Virus record (IMG/VR): IMGVR_UViG_3300026334_000001
Span: 26,053 to 90,052 of that record
Length of the DNA: 64,000 nucleotides
Strand: one strand, 5' to 3'
DNA from: a virus
Both the position numbers and the translations under genes were made by a program. Positions 25,190 to 51,206 of the stretch are shown here, piece by piece. The notes under the pieces are model-generated. The model did no database searches and was not told where the DNA came from. It saw only the letters and a program-made list of their open reading frames with translations. Each line of letters opens with the position of its first letter. Position 1 is the first letter of the stretch.

Positions 25190-26127
25190 TCTTTTTTAAT
25201 TACTCGTGAATCCTTTTTGTTTTCTCCATCTAACATTTTGCGATAGGGAATAAACCCTTTTATATTACCGCACCATCCACGATCTTCTACAATTAATCCA
25301 TTTTTGGGTTTAGTATGAGAATATGCTATTAATTCATCTGATCTCATGCATCTACACGTATGTTCAAAAGGACTGAAATGACCAGACATTAATAATCTAT
25401 CATGTAATTTAATATCATTAAGATAGTTATCTGATTTTCCCTCTTCTCCAACAATAGTATAACTAATTCTTGCACATCGAGAAACTGAAATCTTAATTCT
25501 AAGATTATTAATATGTTCTATAATATCAGTATTACTATAAGGAACTTCTCTTAATAATTTATCCATATCTATACCATCTCCGAATGGAATATGGTATTCT
25601 CCTTCTTTTAATGATTTAGGAGTTGAATTATTATACTCTTCCATCATAACTCTAGCTAATTCTGCTATATGAATTTCAGCTGCTTCATGATTACGCAAAG
25701 CAAAGAAATTCTCAAATTCTGATGCAGTTATAATAGCTGTATGCCACATGAATGGTTCTAATAAACGATTACATATCTGCTTTGTTACTCCCAATTCAGA
25801 TAATTTAACAGCACAATCAACTGCTTCATCTCTAGCACCTAACCATTCAAGAACCAATAAATCTATCTCTTTTTGATCTTCTACATATTCAGTTCCTTGC
25901 ATTCCTTTATGATCCTTCATCCATCGTATAGGAATGAAAGGATTATTTTCTACAGCTTCTATCATCCTTTCAAATGGTATAGCTCTGCTAGATGCTGAAT
26001 TTCTACTTAATACCCTGTGAGTGTTCAGCTCCGCCAAGATTATACGCGGAAACGTCACTACAAAGGTTGTTAATCTGTGATTTGCTGGCGATAAACTATC
26101 TGCCACGATTTTAGCTTCTATTTTCAT
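25171..26127 (-). CDS. thyX: Flavin-dependent thymidylate synthase
   Basis: A 318-residue enzyme. Residues 36-48, THRVLSRNSASSR, are the ThyX signature, a variant of RHRxxSxNxxSxR. The enzyme makes dTMP from dUMP with methylene-tetrahydrofolate, FAD and NADPH. GHFSPFEHTCRC in the C-terminal third is also typical. The protein is longer than classical ThyX (about 220-250 residues) but similar to large phage forms. Its ATG overlaps the upstream stop as ATGA. With ung and the dNMP kinase it forms a thymidine supply and repair group. Confidence 0.9.
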   Translation of the reverse strand: MKIEAKIVADSLSPANHRLTTFVVTFPRIILAELNTHRVLSRNSASSRAIPFERMIEAVENNPFIPIRWMKDHKGMQGTEYVEDQKEIDLLVLEWLGARDEAVDCAVKLSELGVTKQICNRLLEPFMWHTAIITASEFENFFALRNHEAAEIHIAELARVMMEEYNNSTPKSLKEGEYHIPFGDGIDMDKLLREVPYSNTDIIEHINNLRIKISVSRCARISYTIVGEEGKSDNYLNDIKLHDRLLMSGHFSPFEHTCRCMRSDELIAYSHTKPKNGLIVEDRGWCGNIKGFIPYRKMLDGENKKDSRVIKKEWKLEN

Positions 26128-46565: not shown

Positions 46566-46657
46566 TTTCTTTTAAATTAACTTGTAAATTAATATGTCAG
46601 TTTATACAATTTGCACTCCAAATTGTTAAAGAGTTTATGATTGATTTATAGAATCTG

Positions 46658-49169: not shown

Positions 49170-49261
49170 TTCACAATTACGTATTGTACTATCTTGTAAT
49201 ATTGTTAGACTTTTTGTATTAACCAAAATACACCACGTGGAGGTAATCTAACTTGTATTTC

Positions 49262-49597
49262 TGGAGATGTAGGGATTCGAACCCTAGTCTAGCTGAACCA
49301 GCCTTAGAATAATCACTTACAGGTTTTGCTATTTAAAGTATAGCTACTCATTAACCAAACAACTTATTCTTATGAAATCTTTTTTCTTATAGGAGAAATG
49401 ATAAACTCCTGTTATTTAACTAAGCTGCTAATGCTACTTTGTTAAATTGGCTTGTCAGCATTGATACTACTTTAGCACCAAAGTTTGCTGATTCTTGTGA
49501 AAATTTGCCTGTTATTGTTTAATACGCATTTAGATGTACTGTATTTACCATCACCTGTTACTCTATACTTAATCCCCTATCAATTCCATTCATCCCC
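49262..49597 (-). ncRNA. ssrA: Transfer-messenger RNA (tmRNA)
   Basis: About 336 bases with both halves of the tRNA-like domain. The 5' end GGGGATG (49591-49597) pairs with CATCTCC (49263-49269) as a 7-bp acceptor with one G-U pair. GGAATTGATAGGGG follows, close to the GGAUUCGACRGG motif of tmRNA. The T arm (49270-49286) is TAGGG-TTCGAAT-CCCTA, with discriminator A at 49262 and no encoded CCA. The tag frame ends at TAG (49420-49422) and encodes SQFNKVALAA; the ALAA end is the usual degradation tag. The resume codon is probably the GCA at 49486-49488 but is not certain. tmRNA frees stalled ribosomes with SmpB; no phage SmpB is seen here. Confidence 0.88.
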
Positions 49598-50453: not shown

Positions 50454-50762
50454 CTAATCTACATCGCGGATTACTTTATCTAGTTTTGCTATCTGCTGAT
50501 TAATATCAACATCAAAGAATCTACCAGATTTAAAATCTTCTAACATCTTCTTTTGCTCTATTATGACTTCTATCATATTAGGCATGTTACATGCTAGTCT
50601 TGCATTAGCTTCTTCTTGTGCTAGTTTAACTGAATCACTTAGATCATTATCAAATATAGGAGATAATCTTAATACCTCTATACCTTTATGATTACTTATT
50701 ACAATGCTAAAATCATCTTCATTCTTCCTAGAAGAATAAGGACCTTCGGTATAACTACCCAT
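50454..50762 (-). CDS. Unknown 102-residue protein
   Basis: The start MGSYTEGPYSSRKNEDDFSI has a beta-rich first half; then come helices LAQEEANARLACNMPNMIEV and a Lys-rich end. The layout is common in phage hypothetical proteins that begin HTPGPW-like and end in an EANARL helix, but no function is known to me. Confidence 0.55.
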   Translation of the reverse strand: MGSYTEGPYSSRKNEDDFSIVISNHKGIEVLRLSPIFDNDLSDSVKLAQEEANARLACNMPNMIEVIIEQKKMLEDFKSGRFFDVDINQQIAKLDKVIRDVD

Positions 50763-50796
50763 GTCTTAATTATCTTTTCATTATCTATGGTTTTTA

Positions 50797-50929
50797 CAGA
50801 GATGCTCACAACTATTATAGGCTTATATTTAGGTTGTGAATCTTATGTTACTCAGCTTCAAGAGTACATCTCTGCTATCAAATCTACTTGTGGATTAGCC
50901 CAGGTCTGCTCTAACAGTCTTCCACAAGT
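50797..50929. other. Highly structured gap, candidate noncoding RNA
   Basis: Perfect helices: CAGAGATG (50797-50804) with CATCTCTG (50867-50874), enclosing CACAAC/GTTGTG (50807-50812 with 50833-50838) and ACTC/GAGT, a three-way junction. A second domain is closed by ACTTGTGGA/TCCACAAGT (50886-50894 with 50921-50929). The stretch is richer in G+C than its neighbours. A 61-codon + strand frame overlaps it but looks unlike a gene. Confidence 0.5.
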
Positions 50930-50966
50930 TGCTATCTTTAGAATAGCTAGATATTTGAATTCTTTA

Positions 50967-51206
50967 TTATAATCCTAAATCTCCAGGATCTCCATATTCT
51001 AAATCCCCTGTCTGATCTTCATCATCCCAATATATAGCACCACTAATAAGATCTTGTTTAACAACTCTTTTTACTTGACTTTGTCTTTCTATTAATTGTT
51101 TCTGTATACTCAATTCGGGATGAGCAGTCATTAAAACTTTTATTAATTTCTCTAATTTGTCTATCCTACCTAGTAGTTCGACTCTTTCTATTGGACTAAA
51201 ACACAT
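50967..51206 (-). CDS. Unknown 79-residue acidic protein
   Basis: A helical start with a likely coiled coil (ERVELLGRIDKLEKLIKVLM) and an acidic tail (WDDEDQTGDLEYGDPGDLGL). Its leader is the structured element at 51226-51343. No family recognised. Confidence 0.5.
   Translation of the reverse strand: MCFSPIERVELLGRIDKLEKLIKVLMTAHPELSIQKQLIERQSQVKRVVKQDLISGAIYWDDEDQTGDLEYGDPGDLGL

Follow-up and report, generated by a model that had tools for sequence, protein, structure and literature searches.

Features of the locus

The DNA analysed here, called the window, is a 64,000-nt stretch of a viral record (IMGVR_UViG_3300026334_000001, positions 26,053 to 90,052). As shown in Table 1, its minus strand carries a conserved three-way-junction (3WJ) RNA, built from three helices (P1, P2 and P3), two loops (L2 and L3) and a joint (J23). 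The gene downstream starts 33 nt from the 3WJ RNA, at 50762 on the minus strand.

Table 1. Positions of the RNA features and related elements (window coordinates unless a record is named).
Feature	Position	Strand	Evidence
Whole 3WJ RNA, conserved element	50796..50875	-	R1 match 50799-50872; R2 match 50800-50871
P1 5' strand, 9 bp with 50796-50804	50867..50875	-	sequence; 6 of 6 modelled P1 pairs covary
P1 3' strand	50796..50804	-	sequence, covariation
P2 5' strand, 4 bp with 50850-50853; fifth U-A pair possible	50862..50865	-	alignment, covariation
P2 3' strand	50850..50853	-	alignment, covariation
L2, UUGAAGCU, conserved loop, probably T-loop-like	50854..50861	-	nearly fixed in all members
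J23, 9-nt joint AACAUAAGA, conserved part CAUAAGA (family CRUMAGA)	50841..50849	-	alignment
P3 5' strand, 8 bp	50833..50840	-	alignment, covariation
P3 3' strand	50805..50812	-	alignment, covariation
L3, 20-nt conserved loop CUAAAUAUAAGCCUAUAAUA	50813..50832	-	alignment
Second hairpin, 9 bp, outside the conserved element	50886..50928	-	z -1.49; 19 of 200 shuffles equally good
Putative phage tmRNA, unannotated; tag frame ends GKFSQESANFGAKVVSMLTSQFNKVALAA and stop	49259..49597	-	RF00023 46.9 bits, E 1.5e-17; gathering score 47
Circularly permuted tmRNA, MA9V-3	L003 2742-2966; PV245944 26938-27777	- (L003)	RF04321, 64.7 bits
112-nt tRNA match with long insertion	L002 4135-4246; L103 4274-4385	-; -	
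tRNA-like stretch with T arm	L104 ~2140-2240; L101 ~2110-2170; L134 2418-2495	-; +; +	by eye
GOLLD RNAs, Vibrio phages PG07 and D419	L105 4188-4605; L009 824-1244	+; -	
DUF805 RNA	L107 3845-3913	-	RF03081
cr114_1/cr53_1 RNA matches	L007 1743-2061, 2350-2517, 3747-3875; L008 1826-2061, 3520-3692		
TROVE (Ro60-like) protein, crAss001	MH675552 96870-98288	-	

The original prediction described four perfect helices of 6-9 bp at this place. P1, P3 (with one G-U pair) and a separate hairpin fall within that range, but the second arm of the junction has 4-5 bp and not 6. The three-way junction itself is present, with no bases between P3 and P1, and its P1-P2-P3 fold is backed by covariation. The loop letters of the window copy (UUGAAGCU, CAUAAGA and UAAAUAUAAGCCU) fit those of the family. 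The G+C content, said to be above that of the flanking DNA, was 0.391 for positions 50797-50929 and 0.362 for the 3WJ, compared with 0.295 and 0.320 for the 200-bp flanks.

Both strands were folded, as had been proposed. On the minus strand a 146-nt stretch reached -38.1 kcal/mol (z -2.76), and 1 of 200 dinucleotide shuffles was equally good; the plus strand was nearly as stable (z -2.52, 4 of 200 shuffles). The 3WJ by itself gave z -3.05, again with 1 of 200 shuffles equally good. Energy is insufficient ground for a claim of structure, because other sites in the window beat their shuffles by more: the 15 best sites of a fold-energy scan (3,196 80-nt stretches on both strands, in 40-nt steps not aligned exactly on the 3WJ) do not include it. 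The predicted excess of pairing, "far more than chance", was thus too strong when drawn from energy, and holds because of covariation and the covariance-model match described below. Measured against shuffles, the best-folding 80-nt stretches of the window were those at 46657 (+), 53737 (-), 52817 (-) and 47777 (+), possibly terminators.

The hairpin had been regarded as a second domain of the same RNA. It was not found in the relatives, and the BLAST match to cr126_1 spans only 50815-50867; the two-domain unity was therefore given up. We also rejected a 94-aa plus-strand ORF (50688-50972) that spans the 3WJ, which runs opposite to its neighbours and in which the changes among relatives track base pairing.

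Relatives in other phages

When 216 bases were compared by BLAST with 50,697 phage records, crAss-like phage cr126_1 matched at E 1e-4 and Chryseobacterium phage MA9V-3 marginally, at E 0.7, both over the 3WJ only. The search for homologues in crAss-like phages, suggested with the original prediction, thus yielded a relative. With the MA9V-3 copy as lead, we reached about 296 Vibrio phage records, the majority from a single D-series lineage, as well as the T5-like phages VspSw_1, ValX1 and PG07. Eight pattern scans of IMG/VR added L005, L020, L101, L103, L104, L107 and L134. L027 equals L020 over the stretch shown, L045 and L236 are IMG/VR copies of phages already found, and PG07 (L236) was the sole further record in the final viral scan. 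The element is rare, with 10 IMG/VR contigs in the eight scans. It was present in 14 distinct sequences, from crAss-like, Chryseobacterium, T5-like Vibrio and uncultured phages.

A covariance model, R1, was built from alignment A4, which holds five phage sequences other than the window. R1 matched the window copy with 61.8 bits (E 6.8e-12 in 703,672 bases searched) and confirmed L107 and L134. All accepted members scored at least 27.2 bits, and the best other match scored 18.7. One match of this type per record was found in 12 of the 13 records searched; the thirteenth, behind L102, holds a pattern hit that is not a member. Most viral pattern hits were coincidences in coding sequence, screened by fold or by covariance model, some loci by only one of the two. 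Six loci with weak model scores (L102, L110, L233, L234, L235 and L238) were not counted. L110 and L238 are protein-coding, L233-L235 have broken helices, and L102 was left out on its score alone (21.1 bits, E 0.11). One Aeromonas phage BLAST match was also left uncounted.

Outside viral records, 14 pattern hits in genome contigs gave no covariance-model match, and plasmids gave no BLAST match. None of 395 Bacteroidota genomes and none of 369 Gammaproteobacteria genomes yielded the element, a weak negative because scoring was limited to about a dozen candidates in each genome and no positive control gave a signal. Within the searches made, the element is confined to phages.

Covariation and the conserved core

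The 3WJ is a real structured RNA. In alignment A6, which has 14 rows fitted to the model, 18 of 18 pairs show changes on both sides, the compensatory changes for which a check had been proposed. Standard pairs make up 95.9% of its 246 cells, against 56.0% after shuffling and at most 47.2% with the partners slid; the covariation score was 1.057, whereas shuffling gave 0.262 and sliding no more than 0.225. A free MAFFT alignment of ten sequences, with no fit to a model, also showed changes on both sides in 16 of 16 predicted pairs. Sixteen cells of A6 are G-U when read on the minus strand and would be A-C on the opposite one, so the minus strand is favoured.

The loops are nearly fixed across the family: UNGAAGYU in L2, CRUMAGA in J23, and UAAAnnnAAGCCUAUAAUA / UAAAnnnAAGCCU. 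L3 reads Y-UAAA-...-AGCCU, usually followed by AUAAUA. The U-N-G-A-A of L2 is taken by us to fit the T-loop motif. Each strand of P3 is 8 nt long in all members, and 7-8 of the 8 are paired; of 13 members compared, 12 have no bases between P3 and P1. P1 is variable, from 5 to 11 bp in clean cases (the automatic cut of L105 is off). The fixed length of P3 between conserved loops suggests that L2 may touch L3.

A decoy or inhibitor RNA, directed against host RNA-based defence or an RNase (anticodon nucleases, for example) and serving as counter-defence in tRNA arrays, would suit the phage-only distribution in the searches made, the presence in unrelated phages and the single copy per genome. However, no target is known, and a core so strictly conserved across host phyla is less expected in an arms race. 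We consider this quite unlikely.

Neighbourhood of the 3WJ RNA

Of the 13 records that contain the 3WJ, 10 have tRNA genes (RF00005); the record of the window and those of L104 and L020 lack them. A tmRNA is present in six of the 13, in the RF00023 form for the window, L101, L107, L020 and L134 and in the permuted RF04321 form for MA9V-3. Here a tmRNA means a match spanning at least 300 nt, a length chosen once the hits were known, or a permuted match that exceeds the cut-off. One or the other of these RNAs, which serve phages in managing protein synthesis, occurs in 12 of 13 records, and the exception is a 39-kb fragment. Among 25 unselected viral records, brought in by chance pattern hits and searched for the RF00023 form only, three had a tmRNA above the cut-off. 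The tmRNA association is at most a hint, because Fisher's p for 6/13 against 3/25 is 0.04, or 0.09 without MA9V-3. Since tRNAs are common in large phages, the neighbourhood may simply reflect a common spacer-rich region.

In several phages the 3WJ RNA lies close to a tRNA or tmRNA. The 3WJ RNA starts 3-6 nt after a tRNA in L005, L006 and L009, and in L010 an annotated tRNA-Ser starts 9 nt downstream of it. A permuted tmRNA lies about 24 nt downstream in MA9V-3 and a tmRNA about 130 nt downstream in L134, and in cr126_1 a tRNA lies about 80 nt upstream. In the Vibrio phages the 3WJ RNA fills a tRNA position in the array, as an additional tRNA would. It adjoins protein genes, away from tRNAs, in the window and L020; the putative tmRNA of the window is about 1.2 kb downstream.

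The putative tmRNA of the window was missed by ARAGORN and by the Rfam gathering threshold. Its acceptor (GGGGAUG/CAUCUCC) and T arm are visible, and its tag reads ...QFNKVALAA, the frame ending VALAA and stop. The frame of the L134 tmRNA ends FTPAKEEELELAA and stop. According to an excerpt of the MA9V-3 paper, a ClpX gene is listed a few kb from the permuted tmRNA of that phage (PMC13120357); part of another source describes the permuted form as modelled from Alpha- and Betaproteobacteria and Cyanobacteria (PMC11915505).

Other RNAs were seen around the 3WJ. L002 and L103 have upstream of it a tRNA match containing a long insertion, which is not annotated and which ARAGORN fails to call. Downstream of it in L104, L101 and L134 are tRNA-like stretches with a T arm, recognised by eye, where ARAGORN calls none. 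Vibrio phages PG07 and D419 have GOLLD RNAs in their tRNA arrays, and the L107 array contains a DUF805 RNA about 170 nt upstream of the 3WJ. The crAss-like phages cr114_1 and cr53_1 have a permuted-tmRNA match and a RAGATH-9 RNA within a few kb, and cr114_1 also has a hatchet ribozyme.

A self-cleaving ribozyme or processing element, trimming polycistronic tRNA/tmRNA transcripts with the unpaired core as active site and P1 as substrate or closing helix, would explain why the RNA sits between tRNAs in some phages. The size of the RNA, its three-way fold and its conserved unpaired letters would suit such an element, and spacers of other crAss-like phages hold the Rfam hatchet and RAGATH-9 RNAs. 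However, no Rfam ribozyme model matched at E 10, no conserved cleavage site was seen by eye in the flanks outside P1, and the position beside protein genes in the window and L020 does not fit. This explanation appears unlikely.

The same neighbourhoods bear on whether the RNA is a cis-acting leader, a riboswitch or protein-binding element of the gene downstream. In the window, cr126_1, L103, L020 and L009 a start codon follows the 3WJ at a distance of 18-40 nt, as a leader would have it. The downstream ORFs, however, had no similarity to one another at E 0.01, except in two close Vibrio phages; the RNAs of cr126_1 and L103 are nearly identical and the genes after them unrelated; in other members a tRNA or tmRNA comes next; and no expression platform was seen. 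The unrelated downstream genes argue against a riboswitch or leader, which we hold to be improbable. The original prediction had offered a riboswitch, a small RNA or a processing signal, and it is the small RNA that is best supported.

A possible role in translation

Starting from the homology, secondary structure, strand, single copy per record and neighbourhood demonstrated above, we propose, with a probability of roughly 0.6, that the 3WJ defines a new phage RNA family whose members are small (~75-85 nt) and stable, act in trans and are carried with tRNA arrays or tmRNA. The case for such a role is entirely comparative. The RNA would be transcribed from the minus strand in the window and would be stable; where it lies in a tRNA array, the enzymes that process the adjacent tRNAs might cut it free. 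P1 and P3 are probably stacked end to end, because nearly all members have no bases between them. The short P2, with its T-loop-like L2, would lie alongside the 8-bp P3, bringing L2 to dock with L3, and J23 would pack into the junction; the L2-L3 docking pairs are invariant. The outcome would be a rigid platform with the conserved letters facing a partner.

The fixed core common to unrelated phages suggests a partner common to their hosts. Tentatively, the best candidate is a factor in tRNA or ribosome handling that Bacteroidota and Gammaproteobacteria have in similar form. Contact with it might support phage translation, or blunt the host's translation control or defence. Phage-borne RNAs that affect this kind of machinery are known, and serve here as analogies only. 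A tmRNA of phage DS6A that lacks the CDS is described in one source as an inhibitor of the host tmRNA in E. coli (PMC11915505); an excerpt of another cites GOLLD, which is found near tRNA islands, as ribosome-binding in pull-downs (PMC12286853).

More speculatively still, the 3WJ could be a third translation RNA besides tRNA and tmRNA: its T-loop-like loops, locked into each other, would dock on tRNA elbows, tmRNA or the ribosome and so sustain phage translation or disarm host control. If this were true, unrelated phages would have in common a third kind of translation RNA. The hosts span Bacteroidota and Gammaproteobacteria, and several of the phages are cultured (MA9V-3 and Vibrio phages PG07 and D419), which puts tests of expression, partners and fitness within immediate reach.

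Comparison with known RNAs

Rfam 15 gave no match in the window at the gathering score and none at E up to 10 in 50700-51000, in agreement with the original prediction, which could name no RNA class. No description of the 3WJ RNA was found in the open-licence PubMed Central literature, and the available part of the MA9V-3 paper reports the tmRNA and makes no mention of the 3WJ RNA (PMC13120357).

Two resemblances were considered and rejected. The letters UAGAAGC and UAAAGAAAGC..UAAUA raised the idea of a mimic of the L11-binding (GTPase-centre) domain of 23S rRNA. R1 scored that domain at 4.8 bits (E 4.9), which ranks ninth among 14 rRNA hits, and by motif-chain it scored 7.1, while 24,279 positions of a 4.3-Mb background reach 8. 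A bacterial Y RNA with a Ro60 partner was considered because of the TROVE protein in crAss001. PF05731 (TROVE) was present in 0 of 12 records with the 3WJ RNA; it was found only in crAss001, where neither R1 nor R2 detects a 3WJ copy. A Y RNA may sit in the non-coding stretch adjacent to the crAss001 gene.

Like the 3WJ RNA, RNAs C and D of phage T4 (species 1 and 2 RNA) are small stable non-tRNA RNAs, of no known function, inside a phage tRNA cluster. T4 rnaC differs in sequence and fold, having a tRNA-like T arm and long hairpins, and homology was rejected: R2 had no match in T4, and the folds differ. The tmRNAs, standard and permuted (RF00023 and RF04321), are frequent companions of the 3WJ in the window, L134, L107, L020, L101 and MA9V-3, but the 3WJ has no tRNA-like domain, tag frame or match to their covariance models. 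The DUF805 RNA (RF03081), of about 68 nt, shares the L107 array and has a GAAAAGCC stretch resembling L3. Unlike the 3WJ, it consists of two hairpins without a three-way junction, and its model matches no 3WJ member in the searches made.

GOLLD (RF02032) and ROOL are described, in an excerpt of one source, as structured phage RNAs of unknown function, often near tRNA islands (PMC12286853). GOLLD shares arrays with the 3WJ RNA in PG07 and D419. GOLLD and ROOL are several hundred nt long, have other folds and form cages, in contrast to the ~75-85 nt of the 3WJ RNA. A structured phage RNA among tRNAs is a known kind, and the 3WJ family and its fold appear new: a defined family with strong covariation and a testable fold, unrecorded in Rfam and in the phage annotations seen. 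As a small RNA of known shape, it is more tractable than the giant GOLLD and ROOL for learning why non-tRNA RNAs are retained in phage tRNA arrays.
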